In this document: piece after piece, positions 21,097-34,901 of the stretch | How positions within the stretch are numbered: the stretch's first letter is position 1 | Layout of the letters: each line of letters begins with the position of its first letter | Assembly (NCBI RefSeq): GCF_038593265.1 | Contig: NZ_CP151979.1 | Span: 806,001-870,000, forward strand | Reading direction: 5' to 3' | From: Ureibacillus sp. FSL W7-1570 | GTDB lineage: Bacteria; Bacillota; Bacilli; Bacillales_A; Planococcaceae | DNA length: 64,000 bases | Notes under the pieces: generated by a model | What the model was told of the DNA's origin: nothing | The model's input: the letters and a program-made list of their open reading frames with translations, nothing else | The model's database searches: none | Made by a program: the position numbers and the translations under genes

Positions 21097-23583
21097 CCAT
21101 CAACATCTCATAGGTAAGATCAAAACTCACACGCTTTTTACTATCTCTTCTGACTTTTCGAAATTTCAATCCCTCATAGGTAAGATCAAAACTTGAGGAT
21201 GCGGAAGTTTTGTTCCTCGCCCATCTGCCATTTCAATCCCTCATAGGTAAGATCAAAACTAATTGCTACGCTTTTTTGCTACAACATTGTATACATTTCA
21301 ATCCCTCATAGGTAAGATCAAAACTTGTAAAAAATAATGTTATCAGTGGTAAACAGCTAAATTTCAATCCCTCATAGGTAAGATCAAAACACGGCTTGCA
21401 GACCGATAGTGAAAAAGCATACATCAATTTCAATCCCTCATAGGTAAGATCAAAACGTTCACTCTGTTTAAGAAAATAGGCATAACTATCATATTTCAAT
21501 CCCTCATAGGTAAGATCAAAACGTCCAAGCTCTCAAAGAAATTAACGATTGTTTTTCCCAAATTTCAATCCCTCATAGGTAAGATCAAAACATTTTGCAG
21601 AATGGGCTAACAAAGTAGAGAAACCTTATTTCAATCCCTCATAGGTAAGATCAAAACCGGTTTTTGAAGATGAAGTATTACATCGAAAGTTTCATTTCAA
21701 TCCCTCATAGGTAAGATCAAAACCTTTGCCGTTTTTGTCTTTTAAGCCTGTGTATTGCATATTTCAATCCCTCATAGGTAAGATCAAAACAATTATCGGT
21801 GAAATGATTGGAAAACCACGAGAAGCTGATTTCAATCCCTCATAGGTAAGATCAAAACCCGATGTGACCACCGAAAATATCGATTTCTGTATAAATTTCA
21901 ATCCCTCATAGGTAAGATCAAAACGCGCATGTTGTATGCACAGATTCATACCGTTTATATCGTGATTTCAATCCCTCATAGGTAAGATCAAAACACAGCA
22001 TACTGGAAAACGAATAGCGGAGCTATCCAATTTCAATCCCTCATAGGTAAGATCAAAACGTTGTTTCACCACATGCTGCCAACAGCAAGAATAGCGAATT
22101 TCAATCCCTCATAGGTAAGATCAAAACCCTGTTGCGTCTGAAATGGCTTTAGCAAGTCTTTCAGCATTTCAATCCCTCATAGGTAAGATCAAAACTGATT
22201 ATTGTATAAGTCAACACTTTTTTATGTATTTTATTTCAATCCCTCATAGGTAAGATCAAAACGTTGTAGGTGGCGTAGCCCGTCTAAATGAAGATGGATT
22301 TCAATCCCTCATAGGTAAGATCAAAACCAAACATCATTACTACCGTCTGTACTAGCGTTGCCTATATTTCAATCCCTCATAGGTAAGATCAAAACTGCTT
22401 TCAGCGAGTTTCTGTTTTTCTTCACGGTATTTATTTCAATCCCTCATAGGTAAGATCAAAACGAGAATCGGTAAAATGGTTTGCGGAGCAGATGGAAAAA
22501 TTTCAATCCCTCATAGGTAAGATCAAAACTTTGTTGTTGTACCAGACTTCTCAAACTCAGAAAAATTTCAATCCCTCATAGGTAAGATCAAAACCCAGCA
22601 AGTCCAGAAATTGCACCGAGAATTACTAGATTTCAATCCCTCATAGGTAAGATCAAAACTATATGGAAAGAGGAATGTATCATGAAAACAATTGAGTTTC
22701 AATCCCTCATAGGTAAGATCAAAACGGCGGCAGCGATGCATCAGTGATTTTAGGATTCAAGTTTCAATCCCTCATAGGTAAGATCAAAACGTAAAAGAAA
22801 GAGTATTTGAACAGTTTACTTATCGAAATTTCAATCCCTCATAGGTAAGATCAAAACTCCATTACGTTTCATGATTTCAACAACTTCATCACTAATTTCA
22901 ATCCCTCATAGGTAAGATCAAAACCTTGAACAGATTGGCTGGAAAGATATACGGAAAGAATTTCAATCCCTCATAGGTAAGATCAAAACAACGCCCCAGC
23001 GATATGCCGCTTCTTTCACAGTCATAATTTCAATCCCTCATAGGTAAGATCAAAACATCAATAATAAAATCAATATCCATTTTCCTTGCCAGATTTCAAT
23101 CCCTCATAGGTAAGATCAAAACAGATACGGAGGAAATGATTAAACATATCATCTTCATATTTCAATCCCTCATAGGTAAGATCAAAACCTTGCTTTGTTT
23201 TAACTTTTATCCCAAAAATCCCTCGATTTCAATCCCTCATAGGTAAGATCAAAACATCTTGTTAGGTACTTTCAAGTCATGTTTCTTTAAGATTTCAATC
23301 CCTCATAGGTAAGATCAAAACAAAGAGATAATGTCGAACACTATATTTGCAATTTGATTTCAATCCCTCATAGGTAAGATCAAAACAAAGGTGACTTGGG
23401 TGGGTGGATTGAATCAGAACAATTTCAATCCCTCATAGGTAAGATCAAAACAGAGTTTCAGAGAATCGAAATTATTAAAGTGAGTGAAATTTCAATCCCT
23501 CATAGGTAAGATCAAAACCGGTCTTTTTGAAATTCATTCATTTTTCTTCCTCCATTTCAATCCCTCATAGGTAAGATCAAAAC
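21097..23583 (-). CRISPR. CRISPR array A: 38 repeats, 37 spacers
   Basis: Thirty-base repeats every 64-70 bases. In crRNA sense (minus strand) each begins GTTTTGATCTTACC and ends GGGATTGAAAT; spacers are 34-40 bases and all different. The copy at 21097-21126 is degenerate, marking the old end, and the leader is on the right, so spacers near 23554 are the newest. Repeats at 22696 and 22761 end in C instead of T. The trailing GATTGAAAY fits a Cas6-made 5' handle. It serves the cmr genes next to it and probably the type I-B effector. Confidence 0.98.
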
Positions 23584-23760
23584 CCTAATAAAATCAACAT
23601 TTGTTAGCTATATAGTAACTTTTTATTAAAAAATAGTCAATTTGAAATTTTAGTGAAAATAATGAAATTCATTGATTTTATTGGGATTTCTATAAATTAT
23701 ACAAAAATAATTTGTCGTCGATCCCTCGGGGTTGCTGTCGTGAGACCGATCGACGACAAA
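23584..23760 (-). promoter_or_regulatory. Leader and promoter of CRISPR array A
   Basis: AT-rich leader, identical to that of array B except for one base. On the minus strand it contains TTGACT (23635-23640), a 17-base spacer and TACTAT (23612-23617), a good sigma-A promoter whose start would lie about 20 bases before the first repeat. At 23712-23759 it has a 12-base-pair hairpin (TTGTCGTCGATC/GATCGACGACAA) followed by a T-rich tract, placed to end cmr transcription. Confidence 0.85.
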
Positions 23761-26000: not shown

Positions 26001-27134
26001 TTATCCCCCTTTAACGACTCCAGAAATAATTGAAAATCCGAATCCTTCTTGTATTAAATCATCCGAAAAGTGAAACCCGTTCGCTAAATTCATTAATTTT
26101 GAAATTTTTTCTTCATCAATGCGTACATATACCACCGTCCCAGCTGGTACCATCCACTGCCTTTGTTTTGGACGATTGCGAACAATATCCCATCCACCAA
26201 ATACTTCAGGACGGCCAACTGCCCAAGCAATCGGTTCCACTGTAATATCATTAGGAAGTACTAATTTGCCAGTCACTTCATCAAAACTTCCTGGTCTGCT
26301 TCCTTGTTTCCAAATCGAAGGCGTTAATAGAATAATTCGAGCTATACAGTTTTCTCGCAATTGATTTTCAATTTCCTGAAGTTCTTTACTGTTCCAAAAA
26401 AATGGATGCTCATATGAATTCTGTTTCACAATCCAAGGTCGGCTCTCGCCGCCAAGCCTCGCAAATCGTACATTTGTAAAATCAGGAGTGCGATCAATTA
26501 ATACTTCAAGACTGCAATCCGGTTTCATCGATAGCATGTTCATTCGATACAGATATTCATTCTTTGCTTTTTTGTTTACATAGTCTACATGTATACCGAC
26601 CTTTGCATATTCATCAACAAAATCATGTGTAATTAACAATCGATGAATAGGTGTTTGATTTAACACCGATTGTTTCCACTGATCAAAATAAGCAAATTTA
26701 CCCTGAGCATTTTTTGATTTTTTATTTTTTACTGTTGCATACAATGCCCAATCTGTTGAATTTGACGACTGAAAAAAATCATTTTGTTTTATACGAAGCG
26801 GATATCCTGTCAAACTTTCATCATCTTCTACAACTTGATAATCGAGAGGTAACGGTAATACAAGTTGATTTTTCTTACTTATAAATAATCCCTTAATACG
26901 AAAATCTCCGTGAGTATCAGGACTTCCCATCCAGCGCTTTAGTTCTTCGTTTTCTTCTTTAGTAAAGCTTTCAAATGATGAATTTGTATAAATATAAGCA
27001 CTTCTTAGTGCGTTATAAATCGTGTTTGGTCTAGGAGGAAAAAAGCCAGTCATCGTTGTATCGCTGCCAGCATCAGCGTAAGCATGGCCTCTGAAAAAAA
27101 AGGAATCGACCGGTTTAAGCGTTATCGTCTTCAT
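26001..27134 (-). CDS. cmr3: Type III-B RAMP protein Cmr3
   Basis: A 377-residue protein opening LKPVDSFFFRGHAYADAGSD and FFPPRPNTIYNALRSAYI, the Cmr3 hallmark, with a C-terminal GFHFSDDLIQEGFGFSIISG loop. Cmr3 binds the 5' handle of the crRNA and docks Cas10/Cmr2. The start overlaps the end of cmr2 by 20 bases. Length and order match known III-B operons. Confidence 0.94.
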   Translation of the reverse strand: MKTITLKPVDSFFFRGHAYADAGSDTTMTGFFPPRPNTIYNALRSAYIYTNSSFESFTKEENEELKRWMGSPDTHGDFRIKGLFISKKNQLVLPLPLDYQVVEDDESLTGYPLRIKQNDFFQSSNSTDWALYATVKNKKSKNAQGKFAYFDQWKQSVLNQTPIHRLLITHDFVDEYAKVGIHVDYVNKKAKNEYLYRMNMLSMKPDCSLEVLIDRTPDFTNVRFARLGGESRPWIVKQNSYEHPFFWNSKELQEIENQLRENCIARIILLTPSIWKQGSRPGSFDEVTGKLVLPNDITVEPIAWAVGRPEVFGGWDIVRNRPKQRQWMVPAGTVVYVRIDEEKISKLMNLANGFHFSDDLIQEGFGFSIISGVVKGG

Positions 27135-28755
27135 GGTTATTACCGCCTTTATCTTGTTTTTCCATTCTTTTGAAAAAGGTTAGCATTCTTAATAACATAA
27201 CAAACGATTTAACAGATTCCATGCTTTTATATAGTGCCATTAACTTTTCCAGTATATTAGTTAATTCTTTTTCTTCTTTTTTTACTTTCATTGAGCGTCT
27301 AAGCAGCCGACGTAGTTCAAATTCAACCATTAAATGTTTGTCTTTACTATCATAATCATTCAATGGTAAAAAAACTTCAGAAAATCGATAGATAAAAGTA
27401 TCGGATAAATCATTGGTCAATAATTCAATGATTTCGTTTAATAGATCCGAAGTTTGCATTCCGTCGATTTGCCAAGGAACGACAGTTTCATGTTTTTCCG
27501 AGCGAGTATGTATACCGATTGCCAAAGCATTTTTTTGTTGATTTTGTTCTTGATGAACGTAACTTTTTGCGCGATTTTCTAATTTTTTTGCTTCTTGCAA
27601 CAACAACTGCAACGGCGCTTTTTTATGACCTATTACCAATCCTACCGAAGCTGTTGCTCCTTGTAATCCGCTTCCTTTCATACCGAATTTTTGTCTTAGT
27701 TCATTCGCAACCTGTAACGCTTTATCTACAGGCAAAAAAGCTAGAACGTCATCGCCGCCTGCGTAAACCAAATACCCTTCTTCTTTCCGTACTACTTCGG
27801 GTACGACGCGTCTAGAAAAAGTTGCTAATGCGTCACTAACCTTACCTGCTTCTTCAGCAGTGTTGCTATTAAACCACGAACCCATATTGTCTCCGTCCAT
27901 CGAAAGAATTGCAAAATACGTGTATTTTCCAGCTATCTCAATGACCGATGGATAAAACTTGAAAGAGGAGGCATTTCGATATACTTCTTTAAAATAATCC
28001 CGTGCAACCCGTTTTCCTAAACAAATGCTGCATAAATACTCGTTATCGCGGATTCTACCGTCATCTTTTCCTTCATCGGTTCCTTTAAACTTTTCATTTC
28101 TATGCTTCCAAGTATTTTTTACTTTATTTTTCAGTTCATAAATTGTTTCATATTGATCAAATGGCTCCATACATAAAGCATCGCGCTGGGCACAAACTGT
28201 GCAAGTAAATCCACTTTCTATGAGTTGATGATAAATTTTGTCATTTTTAACCGCACTTAATCGCGCTTCAAGTGTTGATTTTTCTTCACGATAATGGCCG
28301 TTATATGGTTGAACAACCCAATATACTTCTAGCAATTGCTCAATTTGATGATTGGCCTGTTTCAACAATTGATCAGTTTGGATATGTTTTGGAAATACTT
28401 CATTGATTGCATAATGGCAAATTTTGTTAAACTCCCGTCTAACAACTGAATCAACTTTTTTTAATACATTCGTCGTTTCATCCAAAGAACCATTTACAAA
28501 TGCCGTGAATCGGTTAGGCCAAGAAGCAACATTTGCGTTGTACCCCGTTTTTTTCATTGGATTTAAATCATCTTCCGATGCTTTGGGATAGATAAACTCA
28601 ACCTTCAAACCTTGACTGCATAGAGTTTCCATTGCTCTTTCAATTAAAAAAGAAAGAATAAAACTGCCGCTCCATAAATCTTCAGTTTTGCGAGCGGAAG
28701 CAATAAAACTTTGAACAGGCCCGATCGAAAAAACTACCATTTGTTTTTCACTCAT
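27115..28755 (-). CDS. cmr2: Cas10/Cmr2 with active GGDD but no HD domain
   Basis: A 546-residue large subunit. It starts directly with VVFSIGPVQSFIASARKTED, the fold that normally follows the HD nuclease, so the N-terminal HD domain is absent. Zinc ligands: C185, C188, C195 and C242, C245. The first Palm has SMDGDNMG (about 286-292); the second Palm has YAGGDDVLAF with GGDD at about 333-336, the cyclase site that makes cyclic oligoadenylates upon target RNA binding. DNA cutting by HD is thus unlikely, and signalling to the CARF proteins should be the main output. ATGA overlap with cmr1. Confidence 0.94.
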   Translation of the reverse strand: MSEKQMVVFSIGPVQSFIASARKTEDLWSGSFILSFLIERAMETLCSQGLKVEFIYPKASEDDLNPMKKTGYNANVASWPNRFTAFVNGSLDETTNVLKKVDSVVRREFNKICHYAINEVFPKHIQTDQLLKQANHQIEQLLEVYWVVQPYNGHYREEKSTLEARLSAVKNDKIYHQLIESGFTCTVCAQRDALCMEPFDQYETIYELKNKVKNTWKHRNEKFKGTDEGKDDGRIRDNEYLCSICLGKRVARDYFKEVYRNASSFKFYPSVIEIAGKYTYFAILSMDGDNMGSWFNSNTAEEAGKVSDALATFSRRVVPEVVRKEEGYLVYAGGDDVLAFLPVDKALQVANELRQKFGMKGSGLQGATASVGLVIGHKKAPLQLLLQEAKKLENRAKSYVHQEQNQQKNALAIGIHTRSEKHETVVPWQIDGMQTSDLLNEIIELLTNDLSDTFIYRFSEVFLPLNDYDSKDKHLMVEFELRRLLRRSMKVKKEEKELTNILEKLMALYKSMESVKSFVMLLRMLTFFKRMEKQDKGGNNHEDDNA

Positions 28756-29657
28756 ATGCTCACTCCTAGTACTTCTAAAAACTCATTGCGTTCATTCTCG
28801 TATTTTTTCATATTTGTTATTGATTGCGATTGAAGTTCTGTTATAACAGGATAATATTTTCCACCTATTTCTTTTACTGAACCCCAGAGAGGAGAAGCAA
28901 ATCTTTTTTTATTACGTTTTTTATCTGATACTTGTCCTAACATACCTGTCTGATTTTTACTGGATGCTTTAGCATAAGCTATAACAACATCCCAAGCCGA
29001 TGTATATGGTCTCCCGAACCATATAGATGCAATCGTCGGATGAGATAACTTTTCATAGTTTCTAACCTTCAATGAATGGCTTGAATTAAACATTACATCA
29101 ATCCCAAAATAGTTTAATGTCCTCATTAGTTCATTTATAAAATCATCAATATCTTCATATTCCGAAAGTTGAATCGAGCCAAATCCGCGTCTTGCTCTTT
29201 GTCCCATACTTCCTAACATTGAAAACAAATGAAATACATTTTCATAAAAAGCTACATCTTCATTACGTTTTACCAACATTTTTACAGGAATTTCTTTTTG
29301 TTCTGGCAAACATGTCATTGGAGAACTATTCTTATGAGGTAATACAAATTTTTTATAGTTTCTAACAATCCAAGGTTTTTCAACAACAAAAGCAACTGGA
29401 GATTTTTGCGCATTAACAGATGTTCCGCCAAATTTTTTTGTTTCAAGTTGTAAAAGTTCTTTTGGTTCATCCATGTGTTGAACAGCACGCCACCAATACC
29501 GAATTACGCCACGCAATGAAGGAATCCGAAATTCTGCTTCAAACTGACTTCCAGAGGCTCCATGTACTCCTAAAGGGGTTATCGTTTTCAATTGATACGT
29601 TTTTGATTGCAGTGCAGTTTTATTTAATGCCAGCTCTAGCAACTGGGAATGATTCAT
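28752..29657 (-). CDS. cmr1: Type III-B RAMP protein Cmr1
   Basis: A 301-residue protein with the Cmr1 signature near the N-terminus, TYQLKTITPLGVHGASG followed by FRIPSLRGVIRYWWRAVQ, and later the G-rich LGSMGQRARRGFGSIQ loop. Cmr1 sits at the 3' side of the crRNA next to Cmr6 and helps bind target RNA. Only one base separates it from the Csx2-type gene upstream, and its stop overlaps the cmr2 start. Confidence 0.94.
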   Translation of the reverse strand: MNHSQLLELALNKTALQSKTYQLKTITPLGVHGASGSQFEAEFRIPSLRGVIRYWWRAVQHMDEPKELLQLETKKFGGTSVNAQKSPVAFVVEKPWIVRNYKKFVLPHKNSSPMTCLPEQKEIPVKMLVKRNEDVAFYENVFHLFSMLGSMGQRARRGFGSIQLSEYEDIDDFINELMRTLNYFGIDVMFNSSHSLKVRNYEKLSHPTIASIWFGRPYTSAWDVVIAYAKASSKNQTGMLGQVSDKKRNKKRFASPLWGSVKEIGGKYYPVITELQSQSITNMKKYENERNEFLEVLGVSI

Positions 29658-30944
29658 TTATGTCACCTCAGTTCGGCTATTTAATGATTTTGACATTTCT
29701 TCGAAAAACGGCCGCAAATTATCTAATGATTCTTTTAATGCTCCTTGAAAACTTTTTGCTTGAAATTGTCTTTCTTTGTTCATTTCAGCGTGGTTAATGT
29801 TGTTTCTATACTCTCTTAATTTTTGAAAAGGTTTTAGCATTTCTCTATAAGGTTTTATTTTTTTAACAACTTTTTTCATGAATTCAATGTCGCCTTGCCA
29901 CTCTTCTTCAGGCTTTTTGTCTAAATATACATTCAATGAAGAGGAGACCACATCTCTCATATCTTTATTAAACTCATCTACTTTTACTAATTTACACAAT
30001 ACAGTTATTACCGATTCAACTAAAATAGTAAGCCCTTGTTGAATTAATCCATGATCATAACACCATTTTGACATGTAATAATAATTCATGATTTCATCAT
30101 CAGAAAAATTTTCAACTTTCTTTTCAATTGTATCAATTAGTGGAATTAATTGACGGAAATGTTGGTTTTCAGAGTGTTTTATTTCTTCAGTTTTTTCCTT
30201 CCATTTATTTATTTCTGTTTGTAAGCTATTAGCTCTAGCTGTTTCAAAACATAAACCAACTGTATTTAACTGATTAATCAAGTACTTAACATTAATCAAT
30301 TCACTTTTTTTATCATCTTTTTTATGTTTGAGTTCCTGATTTACAATCTCTAATAAAACAGAAGCATTTCCAGTACGAATAAATTGGTCAGCACCATTTG
30401 TCCAAGTTAGTAAATTAGTCATACCTGTCAAATCTACAATGGGAGCAATTCTTTCTTCTACATTTATTTTTTCTATTTCTGGAATTCTACCTAATTTTTC
30501 AATCCAGCCATACATTAGCCCACCAAATTTTGCGCCTTTCACAACTTTTGCATAATTGAGAACAATTAATGCGACGATTGGATTAGTACGAAAGCTATGA
30601 GTCACGTCAAAAAAAATTCTATCTCCATATTGAATTTCATCCATAATTTTCTCAAACAATGTCCAAGTTGCATCTTCATCTTGTTCACTTGGAATCGGAA
30701 CATTTTTTACTTTTGCTTGAGGTGCTATTTCATTAAATGTTTCTTGTAAACCAGACCAATTAGCTTCTTCTGCTTCTTTTGTACAAAAAATAATAACTTC
30801 AAGGTTATCGACATAAGAACTAATGTGCTCATAAATAGCCGTTTGTATATAACGAGTTAATTTAGAACGTTTATCGTTATACTCATAGTAGCATGGTATG
30901 TATTTCCCCGTACCTAAAAAAGACATCAGTAGATTTCGGGTCAT
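29658..30944 (-). CDS. csx2: CARF-HEPN ribonuclease of the Csx2/TM1812 family
   Basis: A 428-residue type III accessory effector. The N-terminal CARF domain begins LLMSFLGTGKYIPCYYEY and has FFDVTHSFRTNPIVALIVL, the ligand-side signature. The C-terminal HEPN domain carries the RNase motif R-x4-H (RNNINH, about 380-385). Binding of cyclic oligoadenylate from Cas10 should activate non-specific RNA cleavage. GGAGGGA fixes the start at 30944. It lies between the other CARF gene and cmr1 in one operon. Confidence 0.88.
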   Translation of the reverse strand: MTRNLLMSFLGTGKYIPCYYEYNDKRSKLTRYIQTAIYEHISSYVDNLEVIIFCTKEAEEANWSGLQETFNEIAPQAKVKNVPIPSEQDEDATWTLFEKIMDEIQYGDRIFFDVTHSFRTNPIVALIVLNYAKVVKGAKFGGLMYGWIEKLGRIPEIEKINVEERIAPIVDLTGMTNLLTWTNGADQFIRTGNASVLLEIVNQELKHKKDDKKSELINVKYLINQLNTVGLCFETARANSLQTEINKWKEKTEEIKHSENQHFRQLIPLIDTIEKKVENFSDDEIMNYYYMSKWCYDHGLIQQGLTILVESVITVLCKLVKVDEFNKDMRDVVSSSLNVYLDKKPEEEWQGDIEFMKKVVKKIKPYREMLKPFQKLREYRNNINHAEMNKERQFQAKSFQGALKESLDNLRPFFEEMSKSLNSRTEVT

Positions 30945-30960
30945 AATAACTCCCTCCGAT

Positions 30961-32154
30961 CTATAAATATTTCCCCACAATTTCTTCCGTTACATCGCGA
31001 AAATCGGCTTCATCGTCATAAATCCCTATTCCTTTTGCAGCCTCTCTTTCGTAACGATCGTGATTTAACCATAAGTAATTGGCATATAACCGTTGATTTG
31101 ATGAATCATACCGATAAGCCAACCGAAATACATGCCTTCCATTACTAGCACCTTTGTATAAATGATATTTCATTTTTGAACGGTCGAGCTTATCAAAATC
31201 TTTTTCATGCATCAATTCTAAATCAGGATGTTCGTGCAGTTTAATTTTTTTCACTAATTCCTGCATTTGTTGAGCAACAAAAATAGATTGATCCTGCTGA
31301 TTTTTTATCAAATTTCGAACTTGATCAGACAAATAATACTGTGTATTGAAAATGTGGCTCCGGTCGCTTTGTTCTAGTAAAAATTGACCAAATGGAGTTA
31401 AGCCAACAAGACCTTCTTCAATCTCAAAAACATAGGGATGAGATGAGACGATTTCTTTTTCTTGATGATGCAGCTTTTCAAATTCAATAAAATCATTTAA
31501 ACATTTGCGAAGAAGTGTTGCATTCCCCTCGATAAACTTTTCCACATCGATAGGAACCCACGGAATTTGAATCAGTTGTTGCGCATGTTCATTTACGTAA
31601 ACCGTCGGATATTTCAAAATAGAGCCGACAATATAACCATAAGAAGTCATAAACTTATATCCACCCAATGGAACAAAGCAAGTAGTATTGGGTTCCCCTT
31701 GACGTAATGCATGCGTTAATTTAGACATATATTCTCCAATTTGTCGATTCAAGATACTGGCATTCGAAACATCAAATGTGACATAAGTAACCATTATATT
31801 CGCATTAAAATCTTGTCTAAATAAATAGCTTAATAATCGTTCAGCCATATAACCGCCAATACTGTTCGTCACAATAAGAACAACGGTTGGTTTTTTATGT
31901 AGCTTCCCAAATTTTTTTAAAGAATACATTGTTGAATATTCTGCGCTAACCTGATTTGGCTCTAGTTTGTTTTGCTTATGTTTCCTTATACATAAATGAA
32001 GCCACTTATTGATAACATTTTCAGTTTCTTCTGATATCTCTGTATCAAATAAATTAAGTGATTTTTCCTTAAATTTATCAAAATTATTAAAACAAAAAAA
32101 ATTACTTGAATTATTAAAAGACGTTCCGCACGTAATAACTACAGTATGATACAT
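30961..32154 (-). CDS. CARF protein (APE2256-like) with RelE-like C-terminal domain
   Basis: A 397-residue protein, first gene of the III-B operon. Residues about 1-190 form a CARF domain: VVITCGTSF at the start, VLIVTNSIGGYMAERLLSYL and FVPLGGYKFMTSYGYIVGS, typical of APE2256-type CRISPR proteins. A winged-helix segment follows (GLVGLTPFGQFLLEQ, about 253-267). The last 100 residues (DFDKLDRSKMKYHLYKG, HVFRLAYRYD, YANYLWLNHDRYERE) resemble RelE/HigB toxins, where this strand order forms the mRNA-cutting site. Cyclic-oligoadenylate control of a RelE-like nuclease is inferred. GGAGGA sets the start at 32154. Confidence 0.72.
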   Translation of the reverse strand: MYHTVVITCGTSFNNSSNFFCFNNFDKFKEKSLNLFDTEISEETENVINKWLHLCIRKHKQNKLEPNQVSAEYSTMYSLKKFGKLHKKPTVVLIVTNSIGGYMAERLLSYLFRQDFNANIMVTYVTFDVSNASILNRQIGEYMSKLTHALRQGEPNTTCFVPLGGYKFMTSYGYIVGSILKYPTVYVNEHAQQLIQIPWVPIDVEKFIEGNATLLRKCLNDFIEFEKLHHQEKEIVSSHPYVFEIEEGLVGLTPFGQFLLEQSDRSHIFNTQYYLSDQVRNLIKNQQDQSIFVAQQMQELVKKIKLHEHPDLELMHEKDFDKLDRSKMKYHLYKGASNGRHVFRLAYRYDSSNQRLYANYLWLNHDRYEREAAKGIGIYDDEADFRDVTEEIVGKYL

Positions 32155-32419: not shown

Positions 32420-34724
32420 CCAACAATTCCTCATAGGTAAGATCTAAACATCGTACACGTCTATATGACGTGTAAACTCATTATGTTGTTTCAATCCCTC
32501 ATAGGTAAGATCTGAACAACAGTTATTAGACAACCTGGATTGCATTGAGCGTGGTTTCAATCCCTCATAGGTAAGATCTGAACCCCGAATCACTTGTCTT
32601 TGCCATTCAATTTGCTCGGTTTCAATCCCTCATAGGTAAGATCAAAACCAGCATCAATCGTATCAATTTGTTCTCCAAGTGGTAATTTCAATCCCTCATA
32701 GGTAAGATCAAAACGTACGTGTGTAGTGAACTTCCACTCCTTCGTATTCGCATTTCAATCCCTCATAGGTAAGATCAAAACACAAAAAGTTTTCAAAGTG
32801 TCACGTTCGGACAAAAGCATTTCAATCCCTCATAGGTAAGATCAAAACCAGGAAATAACTGTAAATAAGCAGTTAGATACTGGAATCTAAATTTCAATCC
32901 CTCATAGGTAAGATCAAAACACAAAGGCGATTATGCAAAACAGGTAGCAGATGAAAAATTTCAATCCCTCATAGGTAAGATCAAAACAAACTTGAAGGGC
33001 TTGAAGGCGCTGCGGAGAGAAGCGAAATTTCAATCCCTCATAGGTAAGATCAAAACTATATGACCCATTCACTCTTATTGAGTTAGACGAAGGATTTCAA
33101 TCCCTCATAGGTAAGATCAAAACAAGAGAACGCAAGGAATTATTAAGACTCAAAGCCGAATTTCAATCCCTCATAGGTAAGATCAAAACGTTGATACTAC
33201 ATACACAGTATCTGTTTTTGGGGATGGATTTCAATCCCTCATAGGTAAGATCAAAACCCATACAATCGACCGTAGTATGCAGTGCGGAATACGGATTTCA
33301 ATCCCTCATAGGTAAGATCAAAACACAAACTGAAATGAACTAAACCCGTCGACAATGCTGAATTTCAATCCCTCATAGGTAAGATCAAAACCGGTTGATT
33401 GTCGAATTAGCGAGTGCTTTAATTCGGGTTTCAATCCCTCATAGGTAAGATCAAAACTCGAAAAATTACGCGAATTAAGTGGAACAGAAGGCGGTTTCAA
33501 TCCCTCATAGGTAAGATCAAAACCTAATATGGTATCCATCCACATCTGCATCAGTTCCAAGTTTCAATCCCTCATAGGTAAGATCAAAACAACGACTACG
33601 TGAAGCACTTGAATTTTATGCTGACGAGTTTCAATCCCTCATAGGTAAGATCAAAACGAAGTTCCAGCGATTGAAATCGAAGTGCTCGGCCGGTTTCAAT
33701 CCCTCATAGGTAAGATCAAAACCGGCAAGCGGAACAGAAGCGTTGCAAGCATTGGTCGAGTTTCAATCCCTCATAGGTAAGATCAAAACGAATGGTATTT
33801 ATGAGTATAACTATGTTATCGAAGGTTTCAATCCCTCATAGGTAAGATCAAAACCGCAATCCACCAAGAATCGAAACCTGTGACGGCCATGGTTCAATCC
33901 CTCATAGGTAAGATCAAAACTTTTTTCAACCCCCTACGCCTTTGTTAATATTATGAGTTTCAATCCCTCATAGGTAAGATCAAAACAGTGGGCGCAACTT
34001 TTCTTTTTCAGATGGTCGGTCTAGTTTCAATCCCTCATAGGTAAGATCAAAACATTAACTCCAAAATAATTCGTCAAAAACGACGGATTATGTTTCAATC
34101 CCTCATAGGTAAGATCAAAACGTATCGCTCCACGTTTTTGCAACTCTCGCACACCGAGAGTTTCAATCCCTCATAGGTAAGATCAAAACGGATTTGTAGA
34201 AGGTCTACTATTTGCACAGGAAATTCGTTTCAATCCCTCATAGGTAAGATCAAAACGGTCAATCACGGAACATCATTAGAAATCGAGGACATCTGTTTCA
34301 ATCCCTCATAGGTAAGATCAAAACTTGGATTCGATGAATTCGCTTATACCTTCACTGATGAGTTTCAATCCCTCATAGGTAAGATCAAAACGTTGATTTG
34401 AAAAATCCGGATATCGACAAAATCGAAGATTTCAATCCCTCATAGGTAAGATCAAAACGGCTTGAAGATTGGTTAAAAGACAAAAAAGAACAGTATTTCA
34501 ATCCCTCATAGGTAAGATCAAAACAATTTGGCACAATTTCACTATTTAACTGCGTATAGGCATTTCAATCCCTCATAGGTAAGATCAAAACCAAAGACGA
34601 TTACAATTTACCAAACGTTATGAGCGCATTTCAATCCCTCATAGGTAAGATCAAAACGTGGTTTTGGCACATACATCTTTTTTCGATAGTCTGCATTTCA
34701 ATCCCTCATAGGTAAGATCAAAAC
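32420..34724 (-). CRISPR. CRISPR array B: 35 repeats, 34 spacers
   Basis: Same repeat family and orientation as array A. The leftmost copies (32420, 32488, 32554) differ at the GATCAAAAC end, marking the old end; the leader is at the right. The handle-terminal base (crRNA sense) is C in repeats 2-4 and 16-30 (33428-34391) and T in 5-15 and 31-35, so variants come in blocks. The repeat at 33891 lacks one T. It directly follows cas2 and its leader. Confidence 0.98.
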
Positions 34725-34901
34725 CCTAATAAAATCAACATTTGTTAGCTATATAGTAACTTTTTATTAAAAAATAGTCAATTTGAAATTTTAGTGAAAA
34801 TAATGAAATTCATTGATTTTATTGGGATTTCTATAAATTATACAAAAATAACTTGTCGTCGATCCCTCGGGGTTGCTGTCGTGAGACCGATCGACGACAA
34901 A
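34725..34901 (-). promoter_or_regulatory. Leader and promoter of CRISPR array B
   Basis: 177 bases nearly identical to the array A leader (one difference, C instead of T just before the hairpin). On the minus strand: TTGACT at 34776-34781, 17-base spacer, TACTAT at 34753-34758. The 12-base-pair hairpin at its upstream end lies directly after the cas2 stop and could end the cas operon transcript before the array promoter. Confidence 0.85.

Follow-up and report, generated by a model that had tools for sequence, protein, structure and literature searches.

A Cami1-type CARF-winged helix-RelE protein beside Csx1 in a type III-B CRISPR operon of Ureibacillus

In Ureibacillus sp. FSL W7-1570, a complete type III-B (Cmr) operon is opened by the gene for a 397-aa CARF protein, which raises the question of what the C-terminal region of this protein is and what it would do beside the CARF-HEPN ribonuclease encoded by the next gene. 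We addressed this question computationally in a 64,000-nt stretch of the genome, here called the window. The family closest to the protein is Cami1, which Mogila et al. reportedly described in 2023 as a CARF-wHTH-RelE mRNA interferase. Proteins combining CARF with RelE domains were already listed by 2014 (PMC4012209), were noted as uncharacterised in 2020 (PMC7293037), and a 2022 study assayed one for ring-nuclease activity (PMC9676260); the characterisation of Cami1 is placed in 2023 by a citing passage of a 2024 survey (PMC11229360). The initial annotation of this DNA had taken CARF proteins with toxin-like effectors other than HEPN to be rare, with few of them tested. This view does not hold for Cami1, which is published and has two structures in the PDB (8PHB, apo crystal; 8PHJ, ribosome-bound). 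The survey covered 1113 type III loci, 135 of them with Cami1 and 54 with both Cami1 and Csx1 (PMC11229360).

The operon and its CRISPR surroundings

By open reading frame, the gene has an ATG start and 397 codons plus a stop, exactly filling positions 30961 to 32154 of the minus strand. As initially annotated, it stands first in the Cmr operon, whose closely spaced genes run in the order cami1-csx1-cmr1-cas10-cmr3-cmr4-cmr5-cmr6. The features of the region are as follows.

30961..32154, minus strand: cami1-type gene, 397 aa; CARF ~1-205, winged helix ~206-268, RelE-fold ~269-397
31540..32154, minus strand: APE2256/CARF7-type CARF domain, residues 1-205, from Pfam PF09651, Foldseek and conservation; S12, E72, K167
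30964..31350, minus strand: RelE-fold C-terminal domain, residues 269-397, from a standalone AlphaFold2 model and PDB fold matches
29658..30947, minus strand: csx1, TM1812/Csx2-type CARF-HEPN RNase; TIGR02221; PADLOC CARF2--CARF_HEPN, E 4.9e-108; HEPN motif RNNINH
28752..29657, minus strand: cmr1; TIGR01894; PADLOC Cmr1
27115..28755, minus strand: cas10/cmr2, 546 aa; TIGR02577; cyclase GGDD present
26001..27134, minus strand: cmr3; TIGR01888
25084..25998, minus strand: cmr4; TIGR02580
24690..25094, minus strand: cmr5; TIGR01881
23797..24687, minus strand: cmr6; TIGR01898
32488..34724, minus strand: CRISPR array on the upstream side of the operon; 30-nt repeats at intervals of ~66 nt, with the leader on the right
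21163..23583, minus strand: second CRISPR array, downstream of cmr6; same 30-nt repeat

The 397-codon frame is not a chance ORF, since orthologues at 34-48% identity occur in other genera and families; relatives were gathered within the source organism's family, class and phylum. The counterpart in Ureibacillus terrenus differs by a single residue and was the sole match in a scan of genome contigs with patterns that reach close relatives only. Searches of plasmids and phages with the 397-aa protein gave no match, and a scan upstream of cami1 found sigma-70 promoter sites to be no more numerous than in shuffled sequence. According to the genome search, the related CARF7 genes of two loci (L028 and L031) contain an in-frame TAA, and these are possibly pseudogenes or sequencing errors.

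The adjoining gene was correctly read as encoding a Csx2-type HEPN protein: it matches TIGR02221 and the PADLOC CARF2--CARF_HEPN model, and its product has an intact R-x4-H motif. In Cas10, Pfam recognised Cmr2_N from residue 7 and palm2 at 280-404; it gave no match to an HD nuclease domain, and none is recognisable. Because the GGDD motif is kept and no HD domain is recognisable, signalling output should dominate, which suits a signalling-dependent system. The frames at the Cas10 position in related loci are similar in length (542-578 aa).

The two CRISPR arrays share the last repeat and ~180 nt of leader at 99% identity (window 23550-23760 versus 34691-34901), which suggests a duplication of the array around the type III-B module or an insertion of the module. 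In the upstream array, the repeats furthest from the leader (window 32488-32583) are degenerate (GATCTGAAC versus GATCAAAAC), as is usual at the old end of a CRISPR array. Beyond the 32.5-34.7 kb array, a type I system occupies 35-43 kb, with cas4, cas3, a TM1802-type cas8 and cas6 recognised by Pfam, and cas2, cas1, cas5 and cas7 read from the translations.

Domain architecture of the 397-residue protein

Over residues 1-389, the chain matched the PADLOC model CARF7--CARF_RelE with an E of 1e-125, far ahead of every other model. The APE2256-type CARF domain proposed from the sequence was recovered, as residues 68-199 match Pfam Cas_APE2256 (PF09651, E 2.2e-12) and Foldseek led to Cami1 and Sis0811. 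The full-length AlphaFold2 model, based on the gathered relatives (mean pLDDT 84.6), had Cami1 chains (8phj, 8phb) as its four best PDB matches (E 1e-15 to 1e-14, 412-427 alignment columns), and it also matched the Sulfolobus ring nucleases Sis0811 and SSO1393. The Cami1 alignments run end to end at only 16-18% identity, with a TM-score of ~0.5 and an rmsd of ~10 Å over the whole chain, values suggesting that the modelled domains are correct and that their relative orientation differs. Such a difference is common when a dimeric protein is modelled as a monomer. Inside these alignments lies the predicted winged helix (helices 205-210, 212-220 and 230-238; strands 243-246 and 249-252), in agreement with the initial annotation, which had placed one after the CARF domain. 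An EF-hand_13 match (E 0.083, below the cut-off) was dismissed as chance.

The C-terminus had been read as a RelE/HigB fold rather than HEPN, on the basis of the motifs KMKYHLYKG, HVFRLAYRYD and YANYLWLNHDRYERE, which we located at residues 327, 341 and 357. When residues 264-397 were modelled alone with AlphaFold2 from 13 relatives (pLDDT 87.7, pTM 0.84), the best 21 PDB matches were all YoeB, Cami1, HigB, RelE, YoeB/ParE or PfiAT toxin-antitoxin chains; these were individually weak (best E 0.008), and the first unrelated fold came at rank 22. The predicted order of a strand (272-276), two helices (277-285 and 287-305) and three strands (331-334, 344-350 and 355-362), followed by a helix (365-372), has the strand-helix-helix-strand-strand-strand arrangement of RelE. 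Profile searches bore this out in part: the family profile reached YoeB toxins over the C-terminal domain (E ~0.2), whereas profiles of the C-terminus alone retrieved no RelE chain from the PDB, one of them giving only chance matches such as SMAD. Pfam and NCBIfam found no RelE model in the C-terminus, and Pfam likewise found none across 15 relatives. The RelE assignment therefore has fold comparison and PADLOC, not sequence profiles, as its basis. No HEPN model of Pfam, NCBIfam or PADLOC matched there either. Together, the standalone fold matches, the YoeB profile match and the strand order argue against an unrelated fold and against a ring-nuclease or plain dimerisation domain at the C-terminus, outcomes for which the initial annotation had allowed. 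The architecture is thus CARF-wHTH-RelE.

Conservation peaks in the RelE core, at 64-69% identity to four close orthologues versus 38-46% in the CARF. The dN values, which were compared alone because dS is saturated between orthologues and gives no proper dN/dS, are lowest in the RelE part and higher in the CARF and winged helix. Almost every CARF-RelE relative retains H316, R344, W362, H365, Y368 and E369, and an HDxY motif occurs in the crystallised Cami1 as well. Motif and conservation, read against YoeB, make R344 and H365 good candidates for the two catalytic residues.

In the CARF part, S12, E72 and K167 are kept, as is the motif G164-G165-x-K167; the three residues coincide with the ring-nuclease residues S12, E70 and K167 of SyCsm6 (PMC9676260). 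Since they are tied to ligand binding and ring-nuclease activity, a self-limiting turnover of cyclic tetra-adenylate (cA4) is plausible, and the CARF part could well double as a ring nuclease. No further APE2256-family protein was found in the source genome by a search that covered this family among the ring-nuclease families.

Proposed mechanism and alternatives

Given what we computed here, i.e., a CARF domain, a RelE-type C-terminal fold, a full-length likeness to Cami1 and a position beside Csx1 in a Cmr operon, the protein is very probably a Cami1-family effector with a mechanism derived from its family. Binding of foreign RNA by the Cmr complex would lead Cas10 to make cA4, which would be bound by the CARF dimer, and the resulting change would be relayed through the winged helix to the RelE domain. 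The latter would then cut mRNA in the ribosomal A site, as does Cami1, an active mRNA interferase (PMC11229360), and translation would be halted. Cami1 is reportedly also captured by the ribosomal stalk. The CARF domain is probably also a slow degrader of cA4 that switches the response off, in line with the intrinsic ring-nuclease activity of Cami1 (PMC12409355, PMC12830947). The neighbouring Csx1, presumably activated by the same cA4, would cut free RNA. Most of the type III defence probably falls to these two effectors, since an HD nuclease is not recognisable in the Cas10. The suggestion of two RNA-cutting responses from one Cas10 thus holds insofar as a RelE and a HEPN effector share one Cmr operon; the arrangement itself was already described, since the 2024 survey assigns both Cami1 and Csx1 to cA4 (PMC11229360).

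The conserved CARF residues also fit a protein that is mainly a ring nuclease, its CARF domain degrading cA4 to restrain Csx1 and its RelE domain being inactive or secondary. In vitro, the likewise-built CARF7-RelE protein SyCsm6 turned over both cA4 and cA6, and no RNase activity was seen on naked RNA (PMC9676260), an inertness that fits ribosome dependence, without proving it. No other APE2256-family protein was found in the source genome, whereas in two related loci an additional CARF7 gene lies upstream. However, a RelE core more conserved than the CARF domain is unexpected for a decayed domain, and the characterised Cami1 is active, so we consider this reading improbable. The RelE-fold domain might instead act on another target than A-site mRNA, such as ribosome-free RNA, tRNA or, like ParE, gyrase, as the large sequence divergence from Cami1 and the presence of non-RNase ParE toxins of the same fold in the RelE/ParE superfamily (PMC11980606) would allow; this is quite improbable, given that the standalone fold matches best to YoeB, HigB and Cami1, that R, H and Y are conserved at RNase-like positions, and that the full-length model matches ribosome-bound Cami1. 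A preceding winged helix, as in Csa3, and weak Csa3 matches of the overall model could speak for a C-terminus that is HEPN or a non-nuclease serving plain dimerisation or transcription regulation; this is hardly credible when the 21 best matches of the standalone model come only from the RelE superfamily and Cami1 and no HEPN model matches.

Comparison with related loci and known systems

A locus from another family of the class (L054) has a Cami1-Csx1-Cmr operon in the same order, and another (L055) has no Csx1, with Cmr1 directly after Cami1. In two genomes nearer to the source than that of L054, an extra CARF7 protein of 234-263 aa is encoded directly upstream of cami1, which is followed by Csx1 (L052, 8603-9394; L053, 1846-2550); it is absent from the window. 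This extra protein lacks a full RelE part and may be either a truncated copy or a protein dedicated to ring-nuclease activity.

Cami1 (8PHB, 8PHJ) shares with the 397-aa protein its domain order, full-length fold, type III operon, APE2256-type CARF and the HDxY of its RelE domain; it differs by the low identity in the structural alignment. Cami1 is an already described, fairly common family, often found beside Csx1, and the protein adds no new effector type. It belongs to PDLC01935, a subfamily rich in Bacillota that has a distinct set of RelE motifs (YKGASNG...FRLAY...WLNHDRYERE). As this subfamily is divergent from the characterised Cami1, its RelE domain might differ in active-site set, substrate or activating oligoadenylate, and the Cami1-type protein and Csx1 could then answer different signals from one Cas10, which we regard as unlikely. 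As a Bacillota example of the Cami1-Csx1 pair with a Cas10 in which no HD nuclease can be recognised, the operon offers a clean natural case for how two RNases, both presumably driven by cA4, divide their work.

SyCsm6/Sll7062 of Synechocystis 6803 has the same architecture, S/E/K ring-nuclease residues and Csx1 neighbour, but its operon is III-D rather than III-B and it showed no RNase activity on naked RNA. The Crn1-type CARF7 ring nucleases Sis0811 and SSO1393 have the same CARF fold; stand-alone Crn1 proteins are CARF without an effector, whereas here a folded RelE domain of 130 residues follows. The type II toxins YoeB, HigB and RelE have the fold of the C-terminus and are held by an antitoxin, whereas here the fold is fused to a cOA sensor. 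The HEPN domain with R-x4-6-H that marks Csm6 and Csx1 is absent from the 397-aa protein and present in the product of the adjoining Csx1/TM1812 (Csx2) gene, a CARF-HEPN RNase that presumably answers the same cA4 signal with a HEPN rather than a RelE nuclease.
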